A stretch of DNA of 64,000 nt, taken from NCBI RefSeq assembly GCF_038725785.1, contig NZ_CP109796.1:496001-560000 (forward strand). The letters are read 5' to 3'. Below are positions 1-56,499 of this stretch, piece by piece. Within the stretch, counting starts at the first letter, position 1, and the number at the start of each line of letters is the position of its first letter. The stretch comes from Termitidicoccus mucosus (lineage in GTDB: Bacteria > Verrucomicrobiota > Verrucomicrobiia > Opitutales > Opitutaceae). The notes below the pieces were generated by a model. The model made no database searches. It was given only the letters and a program-made list of their open reading frames with translations, and was not told the DNA's origin. The translations under genes and the position numbers were made by a program.

Positions 1-1
1 T

Positions 2-3000
2 GTCTCAGGCTCCGGCTTGTGGGCCACCACGGGCACTCTTTCCATAGGAGCAATCGGCGGGGGAATCCTGACCATTCAAGAAGGAGGGATCGTCCGGGTC
101 GCCAATTCGGTGGTGATGATCGGCGGCGCCACCGCGCCTGCAACCGGCACGCTCGCCCTGAAAGGCGGCGTTCTGGAGGCGCAGGGCATCGCTAGGACAG
201 CAGGTGCCGCATCTGGCAACGCCACACTCATTCTTAATGGCGGCACCGTCCGCGCCTTGCAGGGCACCGGTTCCTACTTCAACCTGCCGGGCACGACGCT
301 CACGCTGGACGGCACCGGCCTCGCCGCAGGAGCCCCGGCCTTGACGATTGATACAAATGGTTTTGACCTCACTGTCTCCAACACCTTCACCGGCGATGGA
401 GCCTTCGGAAAAACCGGCGGAGGCAAAGTCATCCTTGAGGGTGACAATCACGCGACCACCGGCGGCCTGAATCTCAATGAAGGCGTCGTCCAGATCAGCA
501 GCACCCTGAATCTTTTCGGCGGCGCGCTCAACGGCAGCGGAACCCTCGTCATCGACAACGCCGGCGCCTTCGCCTTCGCCGCTGGCCACACCGGGGATTT
601 CACCGGCCTTGTGCGCCTGCAAGCCAGCGGCCTCGAACTGGGCAATGCGGCGCCCGTCATTGACGGTGCCACCCTGCAACTCGCCGCTGGCGGCAGCGCA
701 ACCTACAACAGCAACAATGGCGACACCACCATCGGCAGTCTCGATTTTGCGGGAGGATCGCTTGATCTCACCTATTCGCCTTCTGGTACCTTGTTCGTTG
801 ACCATCTCGGCGTCAGCACAAGCGGCACCGTGAAACTCGGTGGATTGAGCGCCTCCGGCCCGCCGGGCAATTTACCCGCCAATTTTATCGACCAGAGCCA
901 TGCCACGGGCGACGGCCTGTTATTGATCAAGGCAAACAGCGTTGGCGACATCTCCCAGTTGCGGGTCGATACCGGGACATCAAGCGGTATAACGAGTGAT
1001 CTCGGTCCAGTGGTGGCCACCTACAACTATGCCGGACTGAGCGGCAGCAATTTCGGCGGCGAAAAAGGCCTCTTCATCAGCACTGTTTTGCAGGAGCTCG
1101 CCATCAAATCCGGCAGTACCCTGGTGCTGAACACCGACAATCTTGAAAGCAACAGCACGCACACCTTGGCGGCCAGGATAAGCGGCGCGGACGGCAACGT
1201 CCACATATCCGCGCCGGGCGACTGCATCATCCTCAACGCAAACAACACCTACACGGGCACCACCACCATCGCCAGCGGCACCGTCCGCGCCGCCACCAAC
1301 GACGTCCTTGGCCACACCTCGCACCTCATCCTGTCGGACAACACCACCTTCGATCTCAATGGTGCCACTCAGTCCATCGGCGCCCTCACCGGCGGGGCCG
1401 GCAGCACCCTCGCGCTCGGCAGCGGCTCGCTGGCCATCAATGGCTCGGGCGTCACCCAGGGCCGGATCACGGGCGTCCAGGCCGGATTTCTCTCCGTCTC
1501 ATCCGGCACGGTCATATTGAACAGCGCCAACACCGATTTGCACGTCACGACCATCATTGGTGCCGGCGGCAGCGTCGTGCTCAATGACGGGCAGGCGCTC
1601 GGTGACGGAGCCATTATCATCGAAAACACCACCGCCAGCCTCACCTTGAACAATGCCTCCGCCGCTTCCTTTGCCAACACGCTCAGCGGCAATGGCACCT
1701 TCCTGAAAACCGGAAACGGTCTCCTGGCCCTCAGCGGCGACAACGAGGGTTTCCTCGGCACGGTTGATTTGCGACAGGGCGCCATCGAGGCGCGCAACAG
1801 CAAGGCCCTCGGCTCCGGCATGACCACCCTCCATGGCACACAGGTTGACTACGTCGGCGCCAACGGCACCGTGCCGGGCGCATTCGCCGGCACGGGCAAA
1901 GTAGTCATTCGCGAGGACTCCCTTCTTGCGCTCGCCAGGGCCGACGCCATCGGAACCGGCATCAATGTTGACATCAACGAATCACACCTTGTTCTCGCGG
2001 CCAACGGCACCCGGCTGGGTAACGTCACGCTCAGCAACGGGCGCATGAGTTTCAACAACCCGCCAGGCATCTTTGTCACAGGCACGCTCAAAAGCCTGCA
2101 CGGCGCTTCCACACTGATCTTCAACGTCGATTTCGACACTGGCAAAGCCAACCATCTGACCATTACCGACGCGGCCACGGGCGAGCACGAGGTGAGCATC
2201 GCGCACACCGGCGATCCAGCGGCCGCCTCCATCGCCATAATAAAGAACCCCGAGGGATTCACCGCAAACTACCGCTACAATCCGATCGAAACCGCCCTTG
2301 AACGATACGACGCGGTCCCCGGCGACGGCTCGGCCGCAAGGCCCGATCGCAACGCCGTCTATTTCCACTCCAGCGGACTGTCCAGCACCGCCGATGCGAT
2401 TCTGGCCACCGCCTCGCTGCAAGGCAGGGACTGGCTCTACTCCCTGGATGCGCTTTACCTGCGCATGGGCGACATCCGCGCCGACCCCAACTACGCCAAG
2501 GCCGGAAATCCCCCCGGCAGTTTCTGGGTGCGCGCCCGCAGCCACCGTCTCAATGCCAGCATTTCGTCCCAAGGAAACGAAACCGGCGCCATCAACGGAC
2601 AGTCCTTCCATCAATACGGCCACGGCCTCACCGCAGGTGTAGATCGCGTTCACGCCAGGGGCGCGGGCACGATTTTCGTGGGCGCGTTTATCGACACGGG
2701 CATCGTTGATCGCGACTTTGATAATTACGGCAATGGCGAAAGCGAAACCATCGGGGCGGGCGTGTATGGAAGCTGGTTGCACGAAAAAGGCTGGTTTGCC
2801 GACATTACCCTAAAACTCGATCATGTGAAAAATGACTTCGACGCCCGCGCGTCGGACGGGAAACTCTCGCATGGTTCTTATAAAAACTACGCCAAGGGTG
2901 TCTCGCTGGAAATTGGACGCCGCCTGGTTAATAAAAACGGATGGTGGGTTGAACCCTCCGTGCAAGCCGCATATGTGCATCTAAACAGCGCCGCTTACCA

Positions 3001-3367
3001 AGTCCACGGTGCATACGGTCCGAACTTCGTGCAGGCGAACGTGCCTTCCCCGGTATCCGTGCATCTGGACGCAACCAGCGCCTTCCAGTCTCGCGCTGGT
3101 CTGCGAATCGGACGCCAGTTGGGAGCCACACGCTGGCATCCCTATGGCAAAGCTGCAGTGGCAGGCAGCTTCTCAAACGGTGGCGAAGTCACCGCGGAGG
3201 GCAAAACCCTCGCATCGGACTACGACGGATGTCGCGTCGAGGCAGGGTTCGGCGCCAGCTTCATCATCAACGCCAGGCATGCTCTGTATCTTGATTTTGA
3301 ATACGCAAAGGCGGACGATTACGAGCGCCCCTGGTCCATTAACATCGGCTATCGGGCCTGCTGGTAA
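2..3367 (+). CDS. Autotransporter with beta-strand repeats and C-terminal beta-barrel (5' end missing)
   Basis: The reading frame is open from the first bases of the window, so the N-terminus and any signal peptide lie outside it; the TTG at 17 is not a credible start. The first two thirds is Gly/Thr/Asn/Ser-rich sequence with recurring 'NTYTGTTTIASGTVRA'-type units, the autotransporter-associated beta-strand repeat pattern that forms a secreted beta-helix passenger. From about residue 860 aromatic-alternating strands (VGAFIDTGIVDRDF, GSWLHEKGWFADITLKLDHV) build a pertactin-like outer-membrane barrel, and the protein ends in an aromatic residue (RACW), as barrel proteins do. It lies 80 nt upstream of the GH5 pair. 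The passenger's function is not readable; adhesion or carbohydrate display is a guess. Confidence 0.88.
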   Translation, partial: VSGSGLWATTGTLSIGAIGGGILTIQEGGIVRVANSVVMIGGATAPATGTLALKGGVLEAQGIARTAGAASGNATLILNGGTVRALQGTGSYFNLPGTTLTLDGTGLAAGAPALTIDTNGFDLTVSNTFTGDGAFGKTGGGKVILEGDNHATTGGLNLNEGVVQISSTLNLFGGALNGSGTLVIDNAGAFAFAAGHTGDFTGLVRLQASGLELGNAAPVIDGATLQLAAGGSATYNSNNGDTTIGSLDFAGGSLDLTYSPSGTLFVDHLGVSTSGTVKLGGLSASGPPGNLPANFIDQSHATGDGLLLIKANSVGDISQLRVDTGTSSGITSDLGPVVATYNYAGLSGSNFGGEKGLFISTVLQELAIKSGSTLVLNTDNLESNSTHTLAARISGADGNVHISAPGDCIILNANNTYTGTTTIASGTVRAATNDVLGHTSHLILSDNTTFDLNGATQSIGALTGGAGSTLALGSGSLAINGSGVTQGRITGVQAGFLSVSSGTVILNSANTDLHVTTIIGAGGSVVLNDGQALGDGAIIIENTTASLTLNNASAASFANTLSGNGTFLKTGNGLLALSGDNEGFLGTVDLRQGAIEARNSKALGSGMTTLHGTQVDYVGANGTVPGAFAGTGKVVIREDSLLALARADAIGTGINVDINESHLVLAANGTRLGNVTLSNGRMSFNNPPGIFVTGTLKSLHGASTLIFNVDFDTGKANHLTITDAATGEHEVSIAHTGDPAAASIAIIKNPEGFTANYRYNPIETALERYDAVPGDGSAARPDRNAVYFHSSGLSSTADAILATASLQGRDWLYSLDALYLRMGDIRADPNYAKAGNPPGSFWVRARSHRLNASISSQGNETGAINGQSFHQYGHGLTAGVDRVHARGAGTIFVGAFIDTGIVDRDFDNYGNGESETIGAGVYGSWLHEKGWFADITLKLDHVKNDFDARASDGKLSHGSYKNYAKGVSLEIGRRLVNKNGWWVEPSVQAAYVHLNSAAYQVHGAYGPNFVQANVPSPVSVHLDATSAFQSRAGLRIGRQLGATRWHPYGKAAVAGSFSNGGEVTAEGKTLASDYDGCRVEAGFGASFIINARHALYLDFEYAKADDYERPWSINIGYRACW

Positions 3368-3376
3368 TATTATATG

Positions 3377-3397
3377 GCCGGGCCCGGCACGCCCGGC
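3377..3397 (+). terminator. GC hairpin after autotransporter
   Basis: GCCGGGC, a 7-nt loop and GCCCGGC form a perfect 7-bp stem just after the stop codon at 3367. No U-tract follows directly, so termination here would be weak; the GH5 gene 50 nt downstream may be partly co-transcribed. Confidence 0.35.
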
Positions 3398-3447
3398 ATC
3401 CGCCCCGATCTCCGGGTGGATTAATTTTTCCCCACACTCCCCCGGCA

Positions 3448-6036
3448 ATGGCACCCATGCCTCATCACATCCCCCTCTCATTTATACTGCCACTGGCCCT
3501 TGCCCTGCTGGCGGGCTTGCCAGCGACCGCCGCCGACGACGAACACCTTTGGCTAAAGGTCAAAGGCACGCAAATCGTCACCTCGGCAGAAAGCGACGGG
3601 GGCGAGCGTCTGTTCATTCCCGCCGGCATCGGTTACGGCCGTGATGTCATGATTTACCCCAGGCACTATCCCCCTGGCGACGAGCGCATCCTGCAATTCT
3701 GCAAGGAGCGGGGATTGAACACTGTTCGCCTCGCGTTTTATACGCTGTATTTTAACAGCGTGGAAAACCGCCCGATTGACATCCAGGAGCACGTGCAAAA
3801 TCATATCGATCCCGTCATTGCCGCGGCCAGAAAACAGGGCATGTATGTGATACTCGACTGCCATGAGTTCATGAGCGGGACGATTGACGAGGATGACGCC
3901 CGGGAGGATCAGCATGTCCCCAAGTGGGGGGAGGAAAAAATCCAGCAATGGATAAACGCATGGAAGATCGTCGCGTCGCGTTACAAGGACGAGCCCCACG
4001 TGCTGGGATACGAACTGCTCAACGAGCCTCATGTCACCCCGACAGCCGATTTGCGCGACAATTACAGGCGTTGCATACAGGCCATCCGGGAGGTGGACAA
4101 ACGCCACATTATCATCTTGGGAAACGAAACTTGGACCCATGCCAGGTCCATGGAACGCACTTGGGGAGACATCGCAACCACCATTGACGCACCCCATAAT
4201 AATGTCGTGTTCGCCTTTCACGATTATCCTGATGACAACCACCCGTGGCTGGTGGAGGAGTATGTCACCACCTTTCGCGACAAGCATGGCGTGCCGGTGC
4301 TCTGCACGGAATTTGGCGCCCTTAATTGGAAAAAAAGCGAGACGGTGTGCCGGAACTTCCTTGCGGGTATGCATATGCTTTTTGCAAAGGAAGGCATAGG
4401 CTGGATGATCTGGTGCCTGAGAACCTTGGAGGACCACCCGCGCGATTCCTATAATACGGTGGATGAAACCGGGCTGGGCCCTCCCATCGTTTTTGATTCC
4501 TGCCCCTACAGCGACCTGTGGCCCGCCGTGGCGCGGGTCACGGCGAGCCCGATGCCTCTGCCAAAGCGTCCCCCCTTTGTCGTCCCCGACGCGCTCCCGG
4601 GACAGGAAATCATCATGGAGGCAAATACGGATGGGTATCCCTCCGATCTATCCTACTCGTGGGAGGTGTCCTCCGATGGTGTCAGCTGGTCGAAAATATC
4701 CGGCGACACGGAATTATATAAAGACACCAACACCGCCAGGCTCCGCATTCGCGGCGCGACCGCGCTCATGAGCGGTTATTACTATCGTTACATCGCCGCC
4801 AATCCCGCGATGACGGTGAGCGGCACGGCCACCCTCACGGTCAAGGCCCCGGTTCTCTCCGCCCCCGCCGCACTTGTGGTGGACGCAATCACTGGCGAAC
4901 TCTACGTGACTGACGCGAATCAGCACACGATTTATAAAATCACCGCCGATGCCTCCGGCATAAGCCTCTTCGCCGGTGCCATCGGGCAATCCGGCACCCT
5001 CAATGCCAGCGGGACAGCGGCGCGCTTTAATCAAATCGCGGGCATTGACATTGATACGCAGAGCGGAGGACTGGTGGTCGCCGACACGGGAAACTCCACC
5101 CTGCGCATCCTCAATTCCGCGGCCGCGGTCAACAGCCTCGCCGGCTCTCCGGGCCTTGCCGGATTTACCGATGGCTCCGGCACGAACGCCTTTTTCCGCA
5201 ACCCCGCCGCTGTCGTTGCCGACAATATGGGCAACATCTATGTCGCCGACACGGACAATCATGTTATTCGCATGGTCACCCCCGAAGGCATCGTCACCAC
5301 CATCGCAGGCACACCTCAAGTTTCCGGCACACTCGATGGCAGCGGGACCCATGCCCAATTCAAGAACCCCGCCGGCATCGCTTTCGCCGGCAACACTCTC
5401 TATATTGCAGACACGGGAAATCACACCATCCGCTTTATCACTCCCGCAGACGATGCACATCAAGTTTTCACATTGGCGGGACAGCCTGGGAGCCACGGTT
5501 CCGCGGATGGCGACATGGCGACGGCCGCCCGCTTTCATTCGCCCCGCGGACTTCTCGTCGACGGCGACACGGTCTATGTGGCCGACACGGGCAATTCGCT
5601 CATTCGGAAAATAGAAATTTCCGCAGGCAAAGTCGCCACCATCGCCGGTTACCCGGGAGATGACGGTGATGGCGACTCCGGCGTGATGCCCGGCGTTCCC
5701 GGGTTCAAAGACGGCCAGGGCAACGACGCCTGGCTGCGCCATCCCGAGGACATCGCCATCGCATCCGACGGCACCCTCTATGTAGCGGATACCGGCAACG
5801 CGGCCATACGCAAAATCGCCGCCGATAATAATGCCACGGTAAGCACACTCACCCCCGACATGATTGAACTCAATCCCCCAACTCCGCCGCCCCCTGTCGA
5901 CCCGCCGCCCTCTTCCGGCGGCAGCAGCGGTTCAGGAGGAGGGGGAGGGGGCGTTCCGTCCCACTGGTTTTTCGCCATCATCATCGCCCTTGTTATCATT
6001 CGCGCCAGAAAACCCGGTAAAATTTTTCTCCCATGA
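3448..6036 (+). CDS. Secreted GH5-type glycoside hydrolase with NHL propeller and C-terminal anchor
   Basis: An 862-residue exported protein. Residues 1-29 are a signal peptide (Met4 at 3457 is an alternative start). Residues ~30-370 are a GH5/clan-A TIM barrel: RLAFYTLYF, H139 in ILDCHEF, acid/base E193 in LLNEPH, a conserved FHDYP and nucleophile E288 in LCTEFG. An Ig-like module (~371-467) follows, then about six NHL units (YVADTGNxxIRKI type, ~470-795). The end is Pro-rich, then Ser/Gly-rich, then VPSHW, a hydrophobic stretch and RARK, a tripartite tail suggesting membrane anchoring or sorting. GH5 enzymes are usually beta-1,4-mannanases or glucanases; substrate cannot be told here. The stop overlaps the next start by 4 nt. 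Confidence 0.88.
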   Translation: MAPMPHHIPLSFILPLALALLAGLPATAADDEHLWLKVKGTQIVTSAESDGGERLFIPAGIGYGRDVMIYPRHYPPGDERILQFCKERGLNTVRLAFYTLYFNSVENRPIDIQEHVQNHIDPVIAAARKQGMYVILDCHEFMSGTIDEDDAREDQHVPKWGEEKIQQWINAWKIVASRYKDEPHVLGYELLNEPHVTPTADLRDNYRRCIQAIREVDKRHIIILGNETWTHARSMERTWGDIATTIDAPHNNVVFAFHDYPDDNHPWLVEEYVTTFRDKHGVPVLCTEFGALNWKKSETVCRNFLAGMHMLFAKEGIGWMIWCLRTLEDHPRDSYNTVDETGLGPPIVFDSCPYSDLWPAVARVTASPMPLPKRPPFVVPDALPGQEIIMEANTDGYPSDLSYSWEVSSDGVSWSKISGDTELYKDTNTARLRIRGATALMSGYYYRYIAANPAMTVSGTATLTVKAPVLSAPAALVVDAITGELYVTDANQHTIYKITADASGISLFAGAIGQSGTLNASGTAARFNQIAGIDIDTQSGGLVVADTGNSTLRILNSAAAVNSLAGSPGLAGFTDGSGTNAFFRNPAAVVADNMGNIYVADTDNHVIRMVTPEGIVTTIAGTPQVSGTLDGSGTHAQFKNPAGIAFAGNTLYIADTGNHTIRFITPADDAHQVFTLAGQPGSHGSADGDMATAARFHSPRGLLVDGDTVYVADTGNSLIRKIEISAGKVATIAGYPGDDGDGDSGVMPGVPGFKDGQGNDAWLRHPEDIAIASDGTLYVADTGNAAIRKIAADNNATVSTLTPDMIELNPPTPPPPVDPPPSSGGSSGSGGGGGGVPSHWFFAIIIALVIIRARKPGKIFLP

Positions 6037-7151
6037 AAGAAGAAATGCCGCGCCCCGGTGAAAGCACTCCATATACATTGCTTCCCATCCTCGCATTGCC
6101 GCTCATTTTCATTCTGGCGGCAGCCAGGCTGGCGGCAAACCCGGCAAGCGAGCATCTCTGGCTCAAGGCCAGGGGAAGGCTGATTGTCACCTCGTCGGAA
6201 AGTGACGGAGGAGAGCGCCCGTTTATTGCGGCCGGCATGGCCTATTGCCGCGACGTTATCATTCCGGCGCAGGACGAGGCGGTCATGGCCTTCTGCAAGG
6301 AGCACAACCTGAACACCGTCCGTCTGACATTTTACACCCTGTATTTTGACAATGACAAAAGTCGCCCGATTGAAATGCAAGAGCACATTAGAAATCACAT
6401 TGAGCCAGCCGTCGCCGCCGCGCGAAACCACGGCATGTATGTGATTCTGGCGTGTGATGAGCACATGAGCGATCCATCCGTTGACGGCGTCGCCGTCCGG
6501 GCCTGGGATGAAGCCGCGATACAAAAATGGGTGGCAGGATGGACGGCCGTGGCCGAATACTATAAAGGAGAGCCGCGTGTATTGGGCTACGAATTCCTGG
6601 GCGAACCCATTGGGGTCACTTTTGAGCAGATGAGAAGCAACTATGCGCGGTGCCGGCGCGAAATTCGAAAAGTGGATGACCGCCACCTCCTTATTCTCGG
6701 GGCCAATCATCGTTCCCGACCCGGCACCATGCAAAAATCGTGGGAACTCATGCCTTCGATCATGGACGCCCCTTATAACAATGTGGCATTCGCCTTCCAT
6801 GCGTATCCCGGGGAAGAATCCCCGGTTGTCATTCAAAACCATGTCGTCCAATTTCGGGACGCGCATGGAGTCCCGGTGCTATGCACGCAATTTGGCGCGG
6901 ATTACCAAAACAAGAGTGAAGCGGAATGCCGCAAGTTCCTTGCGGGCATGCACGCAAGCTTTGCCAAGGAGGACGTGGGCTGGATGATCTGGGCACTAAG
7001 GACCCTGGTGGACCACCCGCGCAATTCGTACAACGCAGTGGATCAAACCGGACTTGGTCCTCCTCCGACATATGATTCCTGCCCCTACAGCGATCTGTGG
7101 GCTCCCGCAGCCCGCATGACAGCAAGCGCGATACCCCAGCCGAAAAGATAA
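6033..7151 (+). CDS. GH5-fold paralogue, catalytic residues lost (probable pseudoenzyme)
   Basis: A 372-residue secreted protein translationally coupled to the preceding gene (ATGA overlap). It is a clear paralogue of that protein's GH5 domain throughout (SEHLWLK, RLTFYTLYF, WMIWALRTLVDHPRNSYN match closely) but has no Ig, NHL or anchor region. The nucleophile position reads Gln286 (LCTQFG instead of LCTEFG), the Asn before the acid/base Glu is Gly190 (LGEP instead of LNEP) and the His of DCHEF is Asp142. In retaining GH5 enzymes loss of the nucleophile abolishes hydrolysis. The frame is intact and well conserved elsewhere, so I favour a non-catalytic carbohydrate-binding or partner role over recent decay. 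Confidence 0.85.
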   Translation: MKEEMPRPGESTPYTLLPILALPLIFILAAARLAANPASEHLWLKARGRLIVTSSESDGGERPFIAAGMAYCRDVIIPAQDEAVMAFCKEHNLNTVRLTFYTLYFDNDKSRPIEMQEHIRNHIEPAVAAARNHGMYVILACDEHMSDPSVDGVAVRAWDEAAIQKWVAGWTAVAEYYKGEPRVLGYEFLGEPIGVTFEQMRSNYARCRREIRKVDDRHLLILGANHRSRPGTMQKSWELMPSIMDAPYNNVAFAFHAYPGEESPVVIQNHVVQFRDAHGVPVLCTQFGADYQNKSEAECRKFLAGMHASFAKEDVGWMIWALRTLVDHPRNSYNAVDQTGLGPPPTYDSCPYSDLWAPAARMTASAIPQPKR

Positions 7152-7261
7152 ACGTCCGGCGGCTTTGCTATTAAAGCCTTTGCCCACTTGAAAACGTCGG
7201 AATACTGGTTTCACTTTTCGGCTTCACCTAAATCGAGTTAATCTCTCCGGGTTTAATTCCT

Positions 7262-7307
7262 CGAAGCTTGCTTCGGTTGTATTGTGTTCTGCAACGGAAT
7301 CCGTTGC
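7262..7307. repeat. Two tandem intergenic hairpins
   Basis: Between convergent genes lie CGAAG-CTTG-CTTCG (7262-7275) and GCAACGG-AAT-CCGTTGC (7291-7307, extendable outward by 2-3 bp). With the hairpin at 7322 they form three evenly spaced stem-loops, which looks like a mobile palindromic intergenic repeat rather than three independent terminators. Confidence 0.5.
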
Positions 7308-7321
7308 AGGGATCTTTAATA

Positions 7322-7351
7322 CCTCGGGGCTTGCCCCGGGGTTCTTTATTT
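7322..7351 (+). terminator. Hairpin terminator between convergent genes
   Basis: CCTCGGGG, a CTTG loop and CCCCGGGG form an 8-bp stem (one G-U) followed by a T-rich run (TTCTTTATTT). It sits between the GH5 pair and the leftward GH2 gene and could serve both strands. Confidence 0.5.
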
Positions 7352-7376
7352 CTGCTTCAACTGCATGAGGTCCGGC

Positions 7377-9581
7377 TTAGTGATTCAGCGCGCGTGCGCC
7401 TACGCTGGCGATCTCGTCCATGGCAGGCCGCAGGCTCAGCCGATAGCTGGAATCCCAGTCCTCATGGCCGGTGACGCGCAGCATGAGCGTAAACTCACCG
7501 TCCTGTGTATTCTGTAATTTGATACGAACACTTGGGCCGACGACGGTCTGCTGCGGCGGCAAATCCGGGATGCGCCAGCGCAGCAACTCGATGACCAGGC
7601 CGTCGCACTCCAGCGCGACGATGAGCTCTCCGCCGGGTTGCGCGACGGGGCTGTCGTTGAGCACCCAGATTTCGGCGCTGAAGCATTCGCCGCGCTCCCA
7701 TTGGAATTTGGGGATGCGTGCGCTGGCGAGAGTCGGACGGCACGCCGCCCGCGCCGCATAATAGGCGGGCTTGGGCCGGGCCGGATAATTGACGATGCTG
7801 TTGTTGGCGGCGGTTGGCCAGGGTTCGTTGAAGCACCAGTTGAGCGCCATCGAGCAGCGCGGGCTTTGGCGCCGGGCCTCCTCGAAGACGGATTTCACAC
7901 CCTCGCTTTGCAGCCATTCGCCGCGCGCGACGTGCTGCTCCAGCGATGTGGATTCGCCGAAATAATGCTCGCTGGCGCGTGTGTTTATCCAGAGGGCGTT
8001 GTCGCTGCTCCACGCGCCGAAGGCGTGATGGGTTTCCCAACTCGTGCACGGGCGCGGGGGCCAGAGTTCCTCGGCGGGGATGAATGTTTTCAGGTATTCG
8101 ACTGGAGCGAGCCCGGGACAACCGAACTCGCTGTAGGCGGTGCAGGCGGCGGACCGGAATATCTGGAATATGTCGCGTCCATCAGGGTCGAGGAAGCGGT
8201 AGTCGCCGTGGCCCATGCCCTCAAGCGGCGCGGTGGGGATGAACGGCGTGAGCGGATCGAGGTCGAGGCAGTTGCGGTTGAGCAGGCGGAGCGCGAGCGA
8301 CTGGTCGTCCATGCGTGACCAGGAGTTGAAGAGCTCGTTGCCACCGCACCACAACGCCAGACATGGATGCTGCCGCACGCGGCGGATGATGGCGCGCGAC
8401 TCGCGATCGAGGCCGTCGAGATAGGCGTCGTCATCGGGATAGGCGTTGCAGGCGAGCGGAAACTCCTGCCACACGAGCAGGCCAAGCTCATCGCATTGTT
8501 CGAAAAAAGACTCCTTCGGCGTGGCCGTGCCGCCCCAGCAGCGGAGCAGGTTGAAGTGCGCGTCGCGGGCCAGTGCGAGCAGCGGCTCGTAGGTCGCGGC
8601 GTCCACGCGGCCGTGAAAGATGTCGGGACAGACGAAGTTCGTGCCGCGCGCGAAGATGCGGCGTCCGTTGAGCTCGACCGTCACCGGCGGGAGGCTGCGC
8701 GACTTGGGAAAACCGGCGGGGTGGCTCCAAGCGCCCTCGTGCATGACGAGCCGCACCCGGCGGAATCCGACACGCCGCGTGGCCGCGTCGGCACCGGGCG
8801 CGTCGAGCGAGACTTCCAGCGTGTAGAGCGCCGGCTCGCCGTGGTCATGCGTCCACCAAAGCTGTGGCTCGCGGAGCGTCGCGACGGATTCGCTGGATTC
8901 CAGCACGACGCGTCCGCCCGGCTCGCGCAAGCGCCAGGTGATACCGGACGGCATACTGGTTTCAACCGCGACGGTGATGCGTGCCGACGAGAAATCATCC
9001 GCCAACACGTAGCGAAAATCAATGTGCCTGATGTGCGCCGCCGGGCGTTTTTCAAAACGCGTGTCGTGGCAGAGCCCGAGCGGAATCAGGCGCGGGTGCC
9101 AGTCCCAGCCATAGCTGACGACGGGCTTGGTGACGTGCGCGGCTTGCGAGCGGTCGGGTGGCGCGCCCTCGCGTTTCGGCGCGGGGTGGATGAGGATTTC
9201 GAGCGGCGTGCCCGGCGCAAGGCCCGTCACGTCGAGCTCGAACGGCGTGCACACGCCGGTGTGCTCAAGTAGCACGCGGTCGCCGGCGCGGAATTCGGCA
9301 TGATAGTCGAGCCCGTCGCCGGCGAGAAAGACACGCTCGTCCGCCGCACGTTTGACGGCGGGAATTGCCGCGCGATACAGCCACCAGAAATCCTCAAGGC
9401 CGTTGTAGGCGCGGACGTTTTGCCCGAAGTGCAAATCGGGCAGCGACTGCACACGCGCCCAGTCGAGCTGCACGGCGCCGGGAACGGTGGCGGGAATCCA
9501 GTCGGCAGGCGCAGGTGTCGCGGCGGGCGAGGGCAGGCGCGCCAGTTGCCAGGAGACGGGAAAGGTTGCACGGGAGGACAT
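7377..9581 (-). CDS. GH2-family beta-mannosidase
   Basis: A 734-residue cytoplasmic or periplasmic glycosidase; no clear signal peptide. The N-terminus has the GH2 jelly-roll pattern (WIPATVPGAVQLDW, NGLEDFWWLYRAAIP) typical of beta-mannosidases. The TIM barrel shows acid/base E416 in CGGNELFNSW and nucleophile E485 in YSEFGCPG, with the usual RCWGGTATPKESFFEQCDELGLLVWQEF strand between. I start it at the Met at 9581; an in-frame start at 9635 would run into the preceding gene. It lies 11 nt after the GH5-like gene, so probably the same transcript. Expected role: removing terminal beta-mannose (or related hexose) from oligosaccharides trimmed by its neighbour. Confidence 0.9.
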   Translation of the reverse strand: MSSRATFPVSWQLARLPSPAATPAPADWIPATVPGAVQLDWARVQSLPDLHFGQNVRAYNGLEDFWWLYRAAIPAVKRAADERVFLAGDGLDYHAEFRAGDRVLLEHTGVCTPFELDVTGLAPGTPLEILIHPAPKREGAPPDRSQAAHVTKPVVSYGWDWHPRLIPLGLCHDTRFEKRPAAHIRHIDFRYVLADDFSSARITVAVETSMPSGITWRLREPGGRVVLESSESVATLREPQLWWTHDHGEPALYTLEVSLDAPGADAATRRVGFRRVRLVMHEGAWSHPAGFPKSRSLPPVTVELNGRRIFARGTNFVCPDIFHGRVDAATYEPLLALARDAHFNLLRCWGGTATPKESFFEQCDELGLLVWQEFPLACNAYPDDDAYLDGLDRESRAIIRRVRQHPCLALWCGGNELFNSWSRMDDQSLALRLLNRNCLDLDPLTPFIPTAPLEGMGHGDYRFLDPDGRDIFQIFRSAACTAYSEFGCPGLAPVEYLKTFIPAEELWPPRPCTSWETHHAFGAWSSDNALWINTRASEHYFGESTSLEQHVARGEWLQSEGVKSVFEEARRQSPRCSMALNWCFNEPWPTAANNSIVNYPARPKPAYYAARAACRPTLASARIPKFQWERGECFSAEIWVLNDSPVAQPGGELIVALECDGLVIELLRWRIPDLPPQQTVVGPSVRIKLQNTQDGEFTLMLRVTGHEDWDSSYRLSLRPAMDEIASVGARALNH

Positions 9582-9592
9582 GCGGAGGGGTG

Positions 9593-12190
9593 TCAGTTTT
9601 TTGCGGTGCGAATGCTGAAGATGGCGGTGCGCCATTTCGGGAGATCAATGTCGATGCCCTGCCCGGACAGCGTGGCGGCGGTGCCGTCGAAGACAACTTT
9701 GTTGTCTTCATCAACAAGCAGGAACGTCCCTTCGACATGCAGGCGCGGATACGCTTTGGCCGGCCCTTCGCCCGCGCGGCGGTAGACCAGGAAGTGCGCC
9801 GGTCCCTCAATGAGCAGGAGGCCGGGCGGAGTGCGCTGGTCGAGCACCAGGCCGGCCTCCCTGAGAAACGTGGAGAGTGTTTCCGCCGTGAGGGCTTCGG
9901 CATCGTCGATGATGAGCAGCGGGATCTTGCTGCGCTTGAGCAGGTCGAGCGAGCGCGAGTCGAGGTTGCGGGTGTCCACCACGGCCGCCTTGTAGCGCAG
10001 GCCCGCGGCGACCTCCTCCACCTGTTCGAGTCCCACCGCCATTTGCACGAGGCCGGTGGCGAGGAGTTGGTCGTCGGTCATGTAGTGCACGGGCGCGAGG
10101 TGGAGGTCGAGCGCGAGGCGGGCGAAAGGCACGCAGGCGTGGTTGAGTCCGTTGGCGACGGGCACGGCGGCGGTGTTTTGCACAAAGAGCACCTCGGCGC
10201 GGTCCAAATCAACCGGCCCGGCGGCATAGACAGGCGCGAAGCGGCGGTAGTTTTTCTCGTAAAGGTCGACCACTGGAGCATAAGTGTGGGGGCTGCCCGT
10301 CAAAGTCCAGCCAAGCGAGCCCGTCCAGCCCGAGGCATAGGCCTGCACGGTCTGGGCCTCAATCATAAGCGGGGTGGATTCGCGCTGGCTCATCTCGGGG
10401 AGAAACGAGGCATAGCCGTGCTCGCCCGATTCGCCGTTCCAGACCGGATGCGGCGCGGCGGAATAGGGAAGGGTGATGGCGTAGAACGCATGGCTGAAGG
10501 TGGCGTCCACGTCGCGGGCCAGCCACGGCTCCTTGCGCTGCTTCGCATCGGCGCGGAGCGCGACGGGGCCGTTGCCGAGATAATGGTGCGGCGCCATGCC
10601 GGTGAGCCCGTCGGGCGGCATCCAGGTGAACGAGGGCGTGACATTGCTGTGGCCCCAGGCCGGCGGCATGCCGAAGGTGAGGCGCGCCGGATCGCCCTCG
10701 AGGACGCCGCGAATCGTGGCGCTCGTGATGTCGCGCCACGCAACCTCGCCGGAGTCGGTCACACTGTGCGGCTCGTTGTAGGGGACCTCGAAGCCGAGGA
10801 TGTTGCCGTTGCCGCGCAGCCGGCGGGCAAGCCAGATGTTGGTGTCCACCACGGCCTTCGTATGGCGCGGATCGCCGGGCTCGACGGCCTTGTGGGTTTC
10901 GTGGTTGTAGAGCCAGCCGATGCCGGTGCCGGGTTTGCCCGTGCCTTTGTCGTGGTTGTTGCCGCCGACAAAATAGCGATACGGGTCGGTGGGCAGCTCA
11001 TGCCAGTCGATGAACAGGCGGATGCCGTAATGGCCGGCAAGCGCCACGGCGTATTCGAAGATGTTGAAAAATCCGGTCTCCACCTTGTACGAATTAAGCA
11101 CGTCCGTGTAACGCGGATCGTCTGGAAAAATACCCGGTGCGGGCTGGAACATGCCGAGGTGCAGCGGCACGCGCAACGCGGTGATGCCCCAGTCGCTGTA
11201 TTTGCGGAAATCCTCGGCGAGCGCCTGGTAATTGGCGCGCTCGCGCAGGCTGAATTCGAGCAGGAAACGTGTGTAGTTCAGGCCGAGAAACGCCCAGGGT
11301 TTCCCGTCCACAATGAGATGGCGGCCGTCTTTCTCGACCATCGGTAGCGTCTTCTTGTAGTCAATCAATGGATACACATAGAGCGGCAGGTCGGGCGACT
11401 CGGGGCCGCCGCCGACCGACACGCGCAACGCCAGCGGCCCGGGGCGCATCTGGCGGCGGTCGATCGCAAACACAAACGCGCCGTCCGCCCCGGCCTTCAC
11501 GGACGACTCGCCGATGCATGTCCCGGACGCGTCGAACGCGCGCACGAGCACCGCGTCGCCGGGCGAGGCCTCACCCTTTATCCGCAAGGGGTTTTCCAAA
11601 CGCTGCGTGTCATCGGAAACGGGATGCAGCGCCACCGCCACCTCCTGCCCGACGGACAGCGCGGACACGACAAGCGGGGGGATTTTTTTCCCGACCAAGG
11701 AGATGCGCAGGTTCTCGACCGGAGCATCCGGATCGGGAGGGGAGGGCAGCGGGACGGTGAAAGTGACCGGTTCGCCTGCAATCAGGCTGACGGGGCCGCC
11801 TTCGTCCATCTCCGACCATCCGCCCGCGTTGACGGCCACCCGGGGGGTGAGCGTCACATCCGCCCCGGCGGTCAGGGTGATGCTCACCCGCGCGTCGTGG
11901 CCGACCGGCCATTGCCCGGCCTCGGGGCGCGTGTGGCCCCAGAATGTCCAGACCAAGTTCACTTCGCCGCGGGCGCCGGGAATCCCGATGATGCCGCGTC
12001 CGTCCGAGCCCGGTTTGAAAACCGGCGTGATGCCGGCATAAGTGGACACGGTGCCAATGCCGTTGCCGGTTCGCGGAACCAGCGGGATTTGTTCGGAAAA
12101 CGCCGCGCGTGTCGGAGTCGTTGTGACAAGGAGTGGGAATATCAGCGCGGCCAGCGCCGCGCGCGTCGTCGTAGGGAGGAGGTGTTTCAT
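9593..12190 (-). CDS. Secreted GH5-like (clan A) glycoside hydrolase
   Basis: An 865-residue exported enzyme with signal peptide MKHLLPTTTRAALAALIF. An N-terminal beta-sandwich region (~30-290) precedes a TIM barrel starting at the DGRHLIVDGKPWAFLGLNYTR strand. Acid/base E473 lies in VPYNEPHS and the likely nucleophile E587 in WNGESGEHG; spacing (114 residues) suits clan GH-A. The last ~200 residues are an unassigned domain ending in a small beta module. The frame is open upstream to 12799, but that part is the shadow of the isomerase gene; the signal peptide fixes the start at 12190. Likely attacks a beta-linked glucan or mannan together with the GH2 enzyme; the exact family is uncertain. 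Confidence 0.82.
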   Translation of the reverse strand: MKHLLPTTTRAALAALIFPLLVTTTPTRAAFSEQIPLVPRTGNGIGTVSTYAGITPVFKPGSDGRGIIGIPGARGEVNLVWTFWGHTRPEAGQWPVGHDARVSITLTAGADVTLTPRVAVNAGGWSEMDEGGPVSLIAGEPVTFTVPLPSPPDPDAPVENLRISLVGKKIPPLVVSALSVGQEVAVALHPVSDDTQRLENPLRIKGEASPGDAVLVRAFDASGTCIGESSVKAGADGAFVFAIDRRQMRPGPLALRVSVGGGPESPDLPLYVYPLIDYKKTLPMVEKDGRHLIVDGKPWAFLGLNYTRFLLEFSLRERANYQALAEDFRKYSDWGITALRVPLHLGMFQPAPGIFPDDPRYTDVLNSYKVETGFFNIFEYAVALAGHYGIRLFIDWHELPTDPYRYFVGGNNHDKGTGKPGTGIGWLYNHETHKAVEPGDPRHTKAVVDTNIWLARRLRGNGNILGFEVPYNEPHSVTDSGEVAWRDITSATIRGVLEGDPARLTFGMPPAWGHSNVTPSFTWMPPDGLTGMAPHHYLGNGPVALRADAKQRKEPWLARDVDATFSHAFYAITLPYSAAPHPVWNGESGEHGYASFLPEMSQRESTPLMIEAQTVQAYASGWTGSLGWTLTGSPHTYAPVVDLYEKNYRRFAPVYAAGPVDLDRAEVLFVQNTAAVPVANGLNHACVPFARLALDLHLAPVHYMTDDQLLATGLVQMAVGLEQVEEVAAGLRYKAAVVDTRNLDSRSLDLLKRSKIPLLIIDDAEALTAETLSTFLREAGLVLDQRTPPGLLLIEGPAHFLVYRRAGEGPAKAYPRLHVEGTFLLVDEDNKVVFDGTAATLSGQGIDIDLPKWRTAIFSIRTAKN

Positions 12191-12279
12191 TTTGGAGTCA
12201 GGATTAAAAGCGTGGGGGGCGGGCGGGCCGGGCATGAGATGCGCAGCCCGCCGGGAAAAACCAAACCGGGCGGGAACGC

Positions 12280-13803
12280 TCAGAGCTGGCCAGCGCCGGG
12301 CGTGACCACCGCATAGTCGATGTCGAGCAGCTTCGCGATCTCGACGAGTTCCGCGGCGTGGTGGCCGATGCCGAGCGCGAAGTGGTGCGTGGGCCCTTCG
12401 GCGACCCAGCGCTTGAGGAAGGTGCGCACATCGGGCAGGAAGACGCCGTGGGTGTTGGTGTTGCCCGTCGGCGGAATCGGGCGGCGGGCGGACTCGCCCT
12501 CGGCGATGATAAACTTGAATTTGCCGTCCGCCTTCTGGCCGATGGAGAGCATGGTGATGGGTCCCTCCTTGATCTGGAACTCCACGCCCGCGCCCGAGCC
12601 GGGTTTGCCGTGGTATTTTTTCAGGCTGCGAATCACCGGTTTGCCGGCGGCGATGTTGATGTGGTGCGGGCCGTCGTGGCCCACGAGCACGCTGTCGAGC
12701 TTGAAGTCGATGGGATGGAATTCGGCGAAACTTCCGCCGATGTCGAGGCGGTCCATGATCATCATGGCCACGCAGGTCTTGAGGTCGAACTCGCCGCACA
12801 TCGGGAAGCCCGCGCCGGTCAGCATCGAGTTGCCGACGATGAGATTGGTCACGAGCGTGCGCAACTCGGAGCCGGGCTCCCCCTCGTAATAGTAGGCGAG
12901 ACCGTCGAGTTTTTTCTCGGCAATCAGTTTTTCCAGCGCGACGGCCGCGCGCGCGGCCGTCTCCAAATCCTCGGGACGGAGCTTCCCGGTCAGCGAATCA
13001 CTCTTCGGGTCGGGAGTGTCGAAGAAGCGGAGAATCTCCTTTTTCCAGCGTTCAACCGTGTCGGTGTCCGGCGAACGGTAGTGTTTGAAGAGATCGTCCG
13101 GCTCGACGAGCACGACATGGAGGCCAAACGTCGCCGTGATCGCGGTCGGATCGGTGTGCATGTCGAGCATGGCCTCAAGCACGTGGCCCATGAGCCCGAT
13201 GCGCGAGCGTCGCAGTGAATGAAGCACCTTCGCGATGCCGCACCAACTGTCGAGCTCGCGCGCGACGACGGGGTCGTTGTCCTCATGTCCGATAATGACC
13301 GGTGGTGGCCGCCGGCCGATCCGCACCGCCACGCCGGTGAACTCGGGTACGGAGCAGAAATCGTCGTTGCAAAGCTGCATGTAGGTCGTGCCGTTTTCGT
13401 AATCCATCGCCTTCAGAGGCTGAATGGCGACGAGCACGATGGGGACAGTCAGCTCGCGGCAAAGCACGCCGAAGGTGGACGACGTGCCGTAGGTCACCAT
13501 GTCCACAAAGAGCAGGTCGATGTCGGCCCCTTTGATTTTCGCCACCGTGTCGTAGGCGGCCTGCGCGGTGTCGAGCATCCCGAAATCCTCCACCTCCACG
13601 CCGCGCGCCTCGATAAGGCCGCGCAGATGTTTTTGCTTGCGCGCCATCTCGTCCGGCAGGCCGGGAAACTGCGGCCAGTAGACATGGTGTCCGATGCCGA
13701 CGAGGCCGGCCTTGGCGCGCAGCGGATGCAGGCGCGCGATGCGCGGGGCGGCCATGGAGCCGGGCGAATTAGGTGCGGGGGGGGCTATCTGTTTTGTTGT
13801 CAT
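12280..13803 (-). CDS. L-arabinose/L-fucose isomerase-family protein
   Basis: A 507-residue cytoplasmic protein of typical AraA length. It has the family's N-terminal Rossmann-like region (GLVGIGHHVYWPQFPGL, DIDLLFVDMVTYGTS), a central GHEDNDP segment, and the candidate metal/catalytic set in order: Glu in YYEGEPGSE, Glu in MCGEFDLKT, His in VGHDGPHHIN and His-His in THHFALGIGHH. Known relatives interconvert aldoses and ketoses using Mn2+. Similarity to classical AraA looks distant, so the substrate may differ. It is first in a leftward unit with two glycosidases and could isomerise a released sugar. Confidence 0.78.
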   Translation of the reverse strand: MTTKQIAPPAPNSPGSMAAPRIARLHPLRAKAGLVGIGHHVYWPQFPGLPDEMARKQKHLRGLIEARGVEVEDFGMLDTAQAAYDTVAKIKGADIDLLFVDMVTYGTSSTFGVLCRELTVPIVLVAIQPLKAMDYENGTTYMQLCNDDFCSVPEFTGVAVRIGRRPPPVIIGHEDNDPVVARELDSWCGIAKVLHSLRRSRIGLMGHVLEAMLDMHTDPTAITATFGLHVVLVEPDDLFKHYRSPDTDTVERWKKEILRFFDTPDPKSDSLTGKLRPEDLETAARAAVALEKLIAEKKLDGLAYYYEGEPGSELRTLVTNLIVGNSMLTGAGFPMCGEFDLKTCVAMMIMDRLDIGGSFAEFHPIDFKLDSVLVGHDGPHHINIAAGKPVIRSLKKYHGKPGSGAGVEFQIKEGPITMLSIGQKADGKFKFIIAEGESARRPIPPTGNTNTHGVFLPDVRTFLKRWVAEGPTHHFALGIGHHAAELVEIAKLLDIDYAVVTPGAGQL

Positions 13804-14141
13804 GATCGATTCGGCATCTGCCGGAAATTCAGCTGGCGGGAAAGGGGCGCGCGCCCGGCGCAGTTTTGTATCGGCGGATTCGTAAAAAGCTCGGGCGCAA
13901 ACGGGATAATAAACACGCGGTCATTAAGTGTTCATTTAAGGATAACATCAATAAAATAATTGATGATTTTATTTTCTGGTCTGCAAATCCCCTTGACCTT
14001 TTAGGCATAATATAATGATGGAAATGGACGCAGTCAGGCTGGATGATAGGTTAAATATTAATGTTTATTATATATAAACAATCTTTGCGCCCTTGATCCG
14101 TCTGGTTATCCCTCAATTCCGTCAGTCCGCTCCAAAATCTC
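13804..14141. promoter_or_regulatory. Divergent intergenic control region with nested inverted repeats
   Basis: This 338-nt AT-rich gap separates two divergent units. It holds CATCAAT-N6-ATTGATG (13946-13952/13959-13965) overlapping AATAAAAT-N8-ATTTTATT (13950-13957/13966-13973), plausible operator material. A TTGACC (13993) and a TATAAT (14011) are present but only 12 nt apart, too close for a standard promoter. No gene is visible. Confidence 0.45.
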
Positions 14142-47784: not shown

Positions 47785-47812
47785 TTGACAAAATAATTCC
47801 AATACGCATTTG
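47785..47812 (+). promoter_or_regulatory. Promoter -35 and LacI-type operator candidate D before the TonB receptor
   Basis: A perfect TTGACA (47785-47790) is followed by AAATAATT and CCAATACGCATTTG (47799-47812), identical to site A. The site covers the spacer and the expected -10 position, as a repressor site should. The leader to the ATG at 47975 is about 160 nt; the 226-nt gap holds no other gene. Confidence 0.66.
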
Positions 47813-47974
47813 TTTTTTTCGTTAAATTTCCCCGTCCCCACTCCCCTTGGCACACTTTCTGCAAAATTATGCCCCGTGAATGCGCATTTTGACGGCCCGG
47901 CACCGGCCAGTGATTCCAGTGCCCCGGTCACACGTTTCCCACCAATCCACCAACCCGATCGCTTGTTCCATCCT

Positions 47975-50900
47975 ATGACAACAACTGTTCTCCCTGTCTC
48001 CAGCCGCGACCGCTGCCACCATGCGCGGGCGTGGGCTCAGCTCGTGCTTCCCTGCCTGGCGCTGCTTGCGGCCGCGCCGGGCTCCGGGCAAACCGTGTCT
48101 CCTCCGGGAAATGAAATTGCCGGCGAAGAGCCGGTCATCATGTCGCCGTTCGAAGTGGTTTCCGAGCAGGACAAAGGCTACATGGCCAGCTCGGCCCAAT
48201 CGGGCACGCGCCTGCGCACGGATCTCCGCGATATCGCCTCCTCGATTTCGGTGATCACGAAGGATTTTATGAACGACGTCGGCGCCACCGGCCTTGAGGG
48301 ACTGCTCATCTACACGCTGGGCACCGAGGTCAACGGACTGGGCGGCAATTTTTCCGACGCCGGCACGATCGACAATCCCAACGGGGCGGAGACGGACTAC
48401 GACGCGGCGTTTGCCTCGGCGACACCGAGCACGCGTGTCCGCGGGCTGACCTCGGCGGATCTCTCCCGCGACTTCTTCGTCAGCCGGCTGCCGGTTGACA
48501 GTTATAATATCGAGCGGATGGAAATCAGCCGCGGCCCGAACGCGATGCTCTTCGGCCTGGGCAGCCCCTCCGGCATCATCAACTCCTCGCTGATTTCCGC
48601 GCGACTGAACGGCAACCGCACGTCGTTGGGGTTTCGTTTCGATCAATACGGCTCGTTGCGCGCGGAACTGGACCACAACCAAGTGTTGATTCGCAACAAG
48701 CTCGCGCTGCGGGCCTCCACCGTCTTTGAGGACTCGAATTACAAGGTCGAGGAAGCCTGGCGCGAAAACAAGCGGCTGTTCCTTACCGCCATCTACCGTC
48801 CGTTCAGGAACACCACCTTGAAAGCAGGCGTCGAGTTTGGTGATGTCGATTCCAACATGCCCGAGCTTCGCCCGCCCTTCGATGCCTACACCCAGTGGTG
48901 GGCGATGGGCAGGCCAGCCTGGAATCCCAGCACCAATACCGGCGTGCTGCTCGGCACGCCCGCGTCCGGCTGGCCCGCCACGGTCTTTAATGCCAATGGC
49001 AGCGCTGCGAACACCGGGGGTGTCGGCTACGACGGCGCAGGCTCGCCAAATTCCGGCAATCTCTTCGGCGGGCAGATCGGCGCCATGGGCAATGGCTCGC
49101 GCCAGATGGTGATCGTTTACAACGACCCCAACAGCCCGGTGCCCTCCCTCGGGCTCCCCGGTTCCGGCGTGGTCGGTTTCCGCAATGGCAATTACAACGC
49201 GAACAAACCAAACGCGAACGCCACCTCCTACACCCAGACCCAGACCAGGGGCGTGCGCGACTGGAACTACATCTACAACAATGTCCTTCATTACACGGAA
49301 ATCACCAAGGGTTTTTGGAAGTCGCAGCAAATCTCCGACCCGTCCATTTTCAATTTCTACGAGCACATGTTGCACGGCCAGAACAAGCACGAGTGGGCCG
49401 ATTTCGAGGCGTATGACGTCACCCTCGAACAGCGGTTTTTCAACGGCAAGGCCGGTGCCGAACTTTCCTTCCACCGGGAGCTGCTCGACAACGGCAACGT
49501 GATGCAGCTCGACAGCGTGATCAGCGGTTACACCCTGCGCATCGACATGAATTCGCACCTCGGCAACGGCGAGGTTAACCCGAATTTCGGGCGTCCGTTT
49601 GTGACCGGCTACAGCAAGGCGACGCTCCAGCGCTACGAACAGGAGGGAGTGCGCGGCACGGTTTATTATGATCTCGACCTGCAAAACATAAGCAAACGCG
49701 TCAGCTGGCTCGGCAAACTGCTGGGCCGTCACCGGCTGACCGGCACATGGACGGCGCTGGATAATTCCGCGTTTGAGAGCAAGAACAACTTTGCCCTCGC
49801 CTCGGGGCTTGATTACATGGCGACGGAATGGGGGGCCACGGTGAACGACCTGAATTCGGGCCGGCGCGGCCTGCCGGTCATGCGCTATCTCGGCCCCGAC
49901 GTCAGCGCCTCTCCCGTGCCGGCGGCCGGCGCCTTCGCGGTTCCCGTCACGCAGGATGCGAGCAGTCTCGGCTCCGCCAAAATCCTTTATTACGCCCAGC
50001 CCACCGCCGCCACCAACCCCACGCCGGGCACCTGGTCGGAGCAAACCTTCAGCATTCTGGCCGCGGGAGAAAAAGACGTGGACGAGGTGATCAGCAAGGC
50101 CACCCGCAAGCGGGAGAAAGTCGACTCGCTCGTCGGCGTGGCGCAAAGCTACTGGTGGGACGGCACGCTCGTCAGCACACTGGGCTGGCGCCAGGACAAG
50201 GTGCGGACCTACGATGCCGGCTCGGTGCAATACGACGCGCAGACAGGCCGCGCCATCCTCGACGGCTTCGATGCCGTGCCCACGGGCCGGCAGACCGAGA
50301 CCAGCTTCAACTACGGCTTCGTGCTTCACTCCCCCGAGTTCATCCGCCGTCACCTGCCGTTCGGCTCGTCGCTCAGCCTGATTTACAACCACGCGGACAA
50401 TTTCCGGCCCGCCGGCCAGCGCTATGACATTTATGACAATCTCCTGCCCGCCGAGACCGGCGAGAGCAAGGAATACGGCGTTTTGCTCTCCACGCTGAAC
50501 GGCAGGCTGGTGTTCAAGTTCATGAAATACGAGACGACCTCCGGCCTGTCTTCCTCCCTGTTCACGCTGAGCACGGCGATCACCAATCTGGCCAAGGGAA
50601 TTGCCGAGATGAGAGAGCAAATCCTCCGGGGCAACAACTGGTGGAACAACAGTGGCCACCCCGACGACCCCGCCACCTACCCTGGCAACCCTGCGGGCAT
50701 CGCCGCGTTCAACGCCTGGTATGACGGCCCGGTGGGCATGGCGCTGCGCAACACGTTTCGCATCCGGGAAACCGGTTCGGGCGAGGCGGCCGAGGTTATT
50801 TATGATGATCGCGCGGGCAGCGTTGTCGCCACGGCGGATGTCGTCTCGAAGGGCGAGGAATACGAGGTTGTTTTCAATCCCACGCCGCAATGGCGCATCG

Positions 50901-51514: not shown

Positions 51515-51546
51515 GGGCGGCCAAGGCCGCGCCAATGACAACACCC

Positions 51547-51592
51547 AAGGCCGCCCGGCGGTGGCACGAGTCCCCGCAGACGGCCTTTTTTT
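51547..51592 (+). terminator. Rho-independent terminator after the TonB receptor
   Basis: AAGGCCG (51547-51553) pairs with CGGCCTT (51581-51587), followed by a run of Ts, 30 nt after the receptor stop. Confidence 0.75.
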
Positions 51593-51671
51593 AATTCATT
51601 TACCCGAAACAATGCGGGCGGAGTCCGCTGCCATGTATAAAACCGAAATTCCAGTGGAATAATATAATATT

Positions 51672-56387: not shown

Positions 56388-56499
56388 ATCGTGCGCCGCG
56401 GAGCACATTGATGTATCTTTCTTGCCGAATCTTATCCCGAACGAGTTCTAGGCGCACGCGTCAAAATATGGCCACCCGCACAAAAATCGACCTGACAAA

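Follow-up and report, generated by a model that had tools for sequence, protein, structure and literature searches.

A GH5 paralogue without its nucleophile beside an intact copy in Termitidicoccus mucosus: a probable secreted pseudoenzyme

Introduction

The retaining mechanism of glycoside hydrolase family 5 (GH5) requires a nucleophile Glu. Termitidicoccus mucosus carries two adjacent GH5 genes, here called W1 and W2, and the second encodes Gln at this position, which raises the question of whether W2 is a protein kept for some other task or a copy decaying into a pseudogene. Both genes are found in the window, that is, the whole stretch of 64,000 nucleotides analysed here (G000:C1:496001-560000, positions 496,001 to 560,000 of contig NZ_CP109796.1), which belongs to a 7.9 Mb genome of two contigs. 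Coordinates below are those of the window.

The results point to W2 being a secreted pseudoenzyme kept by selection and not a fresh pseudogene, a reading to which we give a probability of about 0.62. The original prediction had proposed a pseudoenzyme, and the sequence supports it: only five of the eight classical GH5 residues remain, nine of 15 cleft positions are changed, a barrel is predicted, and an omega (ratio of nonsynonymous to synonymous substitution rates) of 1 is rejected. It is the predicted fold, together with the constraint on the branch, that argues for a kept protein. Since the retaining mechanism needs the nucleophile Glu, W2 very probably hydrolyses no glycan by this route.

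Two adjacent paralogous genes

W1 (3448..6036, + strand) encodes a protein of 862 aa with a signal-like N-terminus, an intact GH5 domain, a linker region, an NHL propeller, a Gly-rich stretch and a C-terminal hydrophobic segment. It scores 133 bits against PF00150 (cut-off 23.5) and 115.3 bits against PF01436. W2 (6033..7151, + strand, 372 aa), the proposed pseudoenzyme, consists of a signal-like N-terminus and a GH5 barrel without the nucleophile. It corresponds to the GH5 domain alone, its C-terminal end coinciding with the end of this domain in W1, and its score of 78.3 bits against PF00150, above the curated cut-off of 23.5, places it in the GH5 sequence family. A scan of W2 against NCBIfam gave no family at E 0.01. 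In both proteins, the hydrophobic N-terminal stretch would fit a signal peptide.

The 4-nt overlap of the two genes that had been predicted was borne out: the W1 stop codon (TGA, 6034-6036) and a possible W2 start codon (ATG, 6033-6035) share the sequence ATGA on the + strand (6033..6036). There is a second in-frame start candidate for W2, an ATG at 6045 preceded by AAAGAAGAA, whose use would abolish the overlap. The two proteins are clear paralogues, as had also been claimed, with 193 of 343 positions identical between W2 and the W1 GH5 domain (56%, E 2e-138). A search of the genome with W2 recovered only the W1 and W2 sites at E 0.001.

Some simpler accounts of W2 were rejected. A sequencing or frame error was rejected because the frame runs intact through 372 codons, on a contig of 7.8 Mb, and because the losses are many separate substitutions. 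Recent gene conversion between W1 and W2 was rejected as well, the longest identical DNA stretch in a simple pairwise match being 21 nt and lying on a conserved motif. Inspection of the W2 sequence showed no lipobox Cys, the first Cys being residue 72, and a lipoprotein of the SusE/F type (surface glycan-binding) was rejected on this ground.

Regarding the other end of W1, its C-terminus (about 5930-6033, + strand) presents the Gly-rich stretch, the motif VPSHWF, the hydrophobic segment and RARK, and resembles a signal for sorting or anchoring, although this end had no match among the NCBIfam models. A strict pattern of the sorting-like motif occurs once in the genome, and a looser one gave 6 matches versus 3 in a reversed control. 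The NHL propeller module is present in at least two large proteins of the window, since a 1571-aa protein with immunoglobulin (Ig)-like domains (51672-56387, + strand) has an NHL propeller 42% identical to that of W1 over 342 columns.

Loss of conserved residues in the W2 active site

The comparison set for W2 comprised 26 distinct sequences, one of them W1, drawn from 16 genomes (G000, G041, G208, G222, G234, G245, G259, G272, G280, G524, G562, G569, G590, G717, G738 and G841). Truncated pieces (L029_7, L029_3427, L028_3400 and L030_1), the duplicate L012 and eight identical locus copies were left out of the counts, as were the distant GH5 proteins L004 (G040), L005 (G016) and L051 (G316), which are far weaker matches with Glu at the nucleophile position.

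Eight positions are classically conserved in GH5: Arg, His, Asn, Glu, His, Tyr, Glu and Trp. All of them are kept in the 26 relatives, and so are Asp140, Trp227, His229 and Trp265 (W2 numbering). Position 257 is Asp in 25 relatives and Glu in one, and Trp292 is present in 24, with a gap in the other two. W2 differs from this pattern at D140, H142, N190, W227, H229, D257, W265, E286 and W292, and keeps five of the eight classical residues (R97, E191, H256, Y258 and W320); the lost ones are the His, the Asn and the nucleophile Glu. The alignment thus confirmed the three substitutions named in the original prediction. Gln286, encoded by CAA at 6888..6890 (all these codons are on the + strand), stands where the 26 relatives have Glu (E288 in W1); Gly190 (6600..6602) replaces an Asn and Asp142 (6456..6458) a His (H139 in W1), each found in all 26. 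The next codon after Gly190 is that of Glu191 (6603..6605), the retained acid/base position. Moreover, Q286 aligns with the Gln of PDB 2ckr, an engineered E355Q mutant of Thermobifida fusca Cel5A, in which we take E355 to be the nucleophile.

These three residues are not the entire damage. W2 was said to have its reading frame and surrounding landmarks intact, which holds for the frame of 372 codons but not for the landmarks: 16 of 81 family-invariant positions are lost and 65 are kept, whereas each other member, left out in turn, loses 0-4 of 83-87. The same count with an earlier set of 20 relatives gave 27 of 113 for W2 and 0-5 for the others. Gly190 by itself is weak evidence of inactivity, because GEP instead of NEP is also found in L005 and L051, which have Glu as the nucleophile.

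The changes reach much of the cleft. According to the residue table, W2 is altered at nine of 15 cleft positions and W1 at none of them, the list of 15 having been drawn up partly post hoc, after inspection of the alignment. Among the positions where W1 equals the nearest relative outside the pair, L003, W2 is changed at 56 of 223 overall and at 9 of 15 in the cleft (hypergeometric p 0.003). The W1 arm of this comparison used only positions where W2 equals L003, which is an unfair control, and W1 was judged by the residue table instead.

A barrel fold is predicted

The W2 domain was modelled with 28 aligned sequences, two distant GH5 proteins included, at a mean predicted local distance difference test (pLDDT) of 88.5 and a predicted template modelling score (pTM) of 0.89; a first model built with 11 sequences had reached a pLDDT of 70.6. 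The order of strands and helices is that expected of a barrel, and the predicted model is a (beta/alpha)8 barrel like those of solved GH5 enzymes. Its best structural match has a Z of 30.1, with a root-mean-square deviation of 2.8 over 278 residues (Foldseek, VIA-align 2). Among the 50 matches listed, those to the model are GH5-type enzymes, mostly cellulases, together with mannanases, ceramidases and a GH5_22 xylosidase. Because the alignment behind the model holds active relatives, the prediction shows that the sequence is compatible with the fold and is not proof of it.

Origin and distribution

W1 and W2 are sisters in the trees, with support of 97/91 (21 rows) and 96/85 (27 rows). Their neighbour is L003, a solo intact copy of 414 aa from another genus of the family. 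The alternative grouping of W1 with L003 was not rejected by the approximately unbiased (AU) test (p 0.108), and codon likelihoods favour W1 with W2 by about 16 units. One relative, L018, entered the trees with two letters beyond its stop codon and was omitted from the second structure alignment.

The original prediction called for a search of related genomes for the same pairing of an active and an inactive copy, and this pairing was not found: it was seen in none of the 15 other genomes with the subfamily, seven of which carry two or more copies with no dead one found among them. At least two copies were counted in G222, G245, G280, G524 and G841, at least three in G738 and at least four in G569, all with an intact site; these are lower bounds, since in the large, overlapping genome sets scoring was confined to the few top candidates of each genome. 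Further search rounds beyond the 26 relatives gave no new member of the subfamily, and the loci recovered, other than L051, were known sites. In its own family, the subfamily is present in two of 252 genomes searched, and two genomes of the same genus (68% and 72% complete) gave no match to it. Plasmid records yielded 16 matches, all below 60% identity and with less than 80% of the query covered. None of the genomes searched yielded a W2 orthologue that would show directly whether the copy decayed recently or has long been kept in its dead state.

Other arrangements of the subfamily were also seen. Locus L007, on a contig of a metagenome-assembled genome (MAG), has three tandem intact GH5 copies of the same subfamily at 3355-8913, with an extra N-terminal region, and a fourth copy (L006) is found some 70 kb from them on that contig. 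L040 and L041, whose identity to W2 is 40% and 37%, form a second, deeper branch in which the N-terminal region is long and the active site intact, and the genomes that carry them also carry the short form of the subfamily.

Selection acting on W2

Constraint on W2 was estimated with a purpose-written codon model with branch-specific omega. With eight taxa and 311 codons, omega was 0.09 on the W2 branch and 0.07 in the background, a difference that is not significant (twice the log-likelihood difference, 2dlnL, 0.35), and omega = 1 was rejected on the W2 branch (2dlnL 39.3). With nearer relatives (eight taxa, 326 codons) and three topologies, omega was 0.038-0.039 for W2 versus 0.012-0.013 for the background, and omega = 1 was again rejected (2dlnL 38.8, 45.8 and 46.2). 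Furthermore, in a two-phase model, a final neutral phase was best fitted at zero length; the interpolated 95% upper bound, where the likelihood has dropped by 1.9, is about 0.12 neutral changes per codon. The constraint on W2 is strong but probably relaxed.

Several points weigh against a long-kept protein. The fits were made without a convergence check, and absolute omegas are unreliable, given the saturation of synonymous sites and a roughly sixfold gap in background omega from one taxon set to the other. With the nearer relatives, the omega of W2 is about three times the background, and a single ratio is mildly disfavoured (2dlnL 5.2, 6.2 and 6.6). The estimate of constraint averages over a long branch that cannot be divided at the moment when activity was lost; this end branch is the longest (0.74, versus 0.43 for W1 and 0.14 for L003). 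A short recent neutral phase with up to about 30 replacements would be compatible with the two-phase fit. W2 has been seen in one genome only. Finally, enrichment of the losses on the catalytic face is weak (13/40 vs 11/59, p 0.15 two-sided, with 20 relatives; 9/28 vs 7/46, p 0.08 one-sided, with 26), and their clustering by adjacency is not significant (p 0.11); a distance test gave p 0.02 one-sided. These structure-based tests used strands from the first, poorer W2 model.

Under the pseudoenzyme reading, a GH5 gene would have been duplicated in tandem in this lineage. The W1 copy would have kept the catalytic site and been joined to the NHL propeller and the C-terminal hydrophobic segment. 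The W2 copy would have become a single secreted barrel, losing the nucleophile, the His, the Asn and much of the conserved cleft, and its fold may have stayed under purifying selection while the cleft was dismantled.

Possible roles of W2

Regarding function, we favour a glycan-binding accessory whose ligand has changed, place a protein partner second and put a fading relic third. In the first role, W2 would assist W1 outside the cytoplasm by binding without catalysis, most likely holding a glycan in another manner than the ancestral enzyme did; this is a tentative first choice, held at somewhat less than even odds. In GH5 endoglucanases the Trp after strand 5, one of those lost here, is a +1 platform. 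With W227, W265, W292, H229 and D257 gone, the ancestral substrate is less likely to be bound as before. Of the old site, the five classical residues described above remain.

A purely protein-binding role is rather unlikely, although it survives best among the alternatives. W2 could be a scaffold or regulatory partner that uses its barrel surface to bind W1 or a different surface protein, such as the autotransporter encoded upstream, with the old cleft unused. The gene overlap and the tandem origin would agree with a partnership with W1, and so would the disappearance of the conserved aromatics W227, W265 and W292 from a predicted fold that is retained. However, a terminator-like sequence separates the autotransporter gene from W1, and R97, E191, H256, Y258 and W320 would be superfluous for a pure scaffold.

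Slightly less probable still is that W2 is a fading relic, that is, a redundant tandem copy that became inactive recently, has no function and is heading to a pseudogene. Its occurrence in a single genome, its long branch with the most invariant positions lost, its raised omega with the nearer relatives and the weak cleft enrichment of the losses by several tests would all be expected of such a copy. On the other hand, the frame, the signal-like N-terminus and most invariant positions are intact, omega = 1 is rejected with the nearer relatives under every topology, and the fit leaves zero length for a late neutral phase.

It is very improbable that W2 is still an enzyme, one that has exchanged its chemistry and cleaves or rearranges a different glycan in sequence with W1 by a mechanism not known in GH5, with Glu191 as acid and the new carboxylate Asp142 as base or nucleophile: Glu191 is indeed retained, a carboxylate does occupy the conserved His position and W2 as a whole is preserved with an altered cleft, but no intermediate was found among the relatives, Asp142 follows strand 3 in the model while strand 7 is the one that ends at the nucleophile position, and W227, H229, D257 and W265 are lost as well.

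Genomic context

The original prediction placed W2 in an operon with W1. The overlap, the shared strand and two terminator-like hairpins 3' of W2 (7287..7342, + strand, pattern match only) agree with this, but a pattern scan also found a weak terminator-like site (5948-5962) and a promoter-like site (9/12, 5972-5999) inside the end of W1, just before W2. Between 3200 and 7500, both strands together hold 10 terminator-like sites versus 4.3 expected and five promoter-like sites versus 2.3 expected. From the gene arrangement, W2 is probably made together with W1; our confidence in this was lowered slightly because of the sites just before W2.

Upstream, a 1384-aa autotransporter that combines T5SS/PEP-CTERM-associated repeats with a beta-barrel starts about 790 bases before the window and ends at 3367 (+ strand). 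It was excluded from the W1/W2 unit because of a terminator-like hairpin between the two genes (3398..3421, + strand, pattern match only). GH3 and apiosidase-like genes are found about 9-12 kb upstream of the window start, and downstream of W2 the other strand encodes a GH2-type protein, a GH5-like protein and an isomerase-like protein. Judging by these genes, the surroundings look like a carbohydrate-use neighbourhood. No tandem repeats were found in positions 1-14000.

The GH5-like protein (9593-12799, - strand) probably starts at 12190 (MKHLLPTT..., signal-like), and most of the N-terminal 203 residues of its longest frame, 9593-12799, overlap the isomerase-like gene. Further along, at 47810-58572 (+ strand), a TonB-plug protein of 1234 aa is followed by the Ig/NHL protein and this by a heparinase II/III-like protein, possibly as a separate polysaccharide locus.

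W2 and other inactive glycosidases

The closest structural frame for W2 is that of the GH5 endoglucanases of clan GH-A. The W2 model has a fold like those of Cel5A from Bacillus agaradhaerens and from T. fusca (Z 28.6-29.8 over 270-276 residues). Like these enzymes, W2 matches PF00150 and keeps the acid/base Glu and the Arg, His, Tyr and Trp; unlike them, it has lost the nucleophile Glu, a His, the Asn and the Trp after strand 5, and the identity is 15-20%.

Among inactive glycosidases, GH26B of the polysaccharide utilization locus (PUL) 7 of Segatella copri offers a bacterial parallel. As reported in PMC12704710, both of its catalytic residues are mutated and this is conserved in 62 further genomes and MAGs; the protein is predicted to be anchored in the outer membrane, shows no hydrolysis, and bound no glycan in the assays used. 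Like W2, it is a secreted, catalytically dead paralogue whose carbohydrate locus also encodes active relatives. W2 differs from it in belonging to GH5, keeping one catalytic Glu, being found in one genome and having no lipobox Cys. As GH26B bound no glycan in those assays, it speaks against simply assuming that W2 binds one.

Eukaryotic cases resemble W2 in part. The insect imaginal disc growth factors (IDGFs) and mouse Ym1/Ym2 of GH18 are glycosidase homologues that, like W2, have Gln for the catalytic Glu; they are animal proteins with several members, and in them the altered residue is the proton donor (PMC1945033). Among the GH28 pseudoenzymes of leaf beetles, GH28-3 is, like W2, a duplicated glycosidase with a substituted nucleophile, but it belongs to GH28 and to a multigene family of insects (PMC6549527). 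Pseudoglycosidases are reviewed in PMC7828330.

The literature listed as naming GH5 together with pseudoenzyme or inactivity yielded no bacterial GH5 pseudoenzyme; subscription papers mostly fell outside this scope, and the result is not proof of absence. W2 is a good but not unprecedented case, since dead glycosidase paralogues are already known in other families. Annotation by PF00150 alone would count it as a cellulase, given a score far above the cut-off. If the pseudoenzyme reading is true, W2 adds GH5 to GH18, GH26 and GH28 as families with dead glycosidase paralogues, and because its active twin adjoins it and the other members found keep their site, the W1/W2 pair offers a clean way to test the function of a dead glycosidase.

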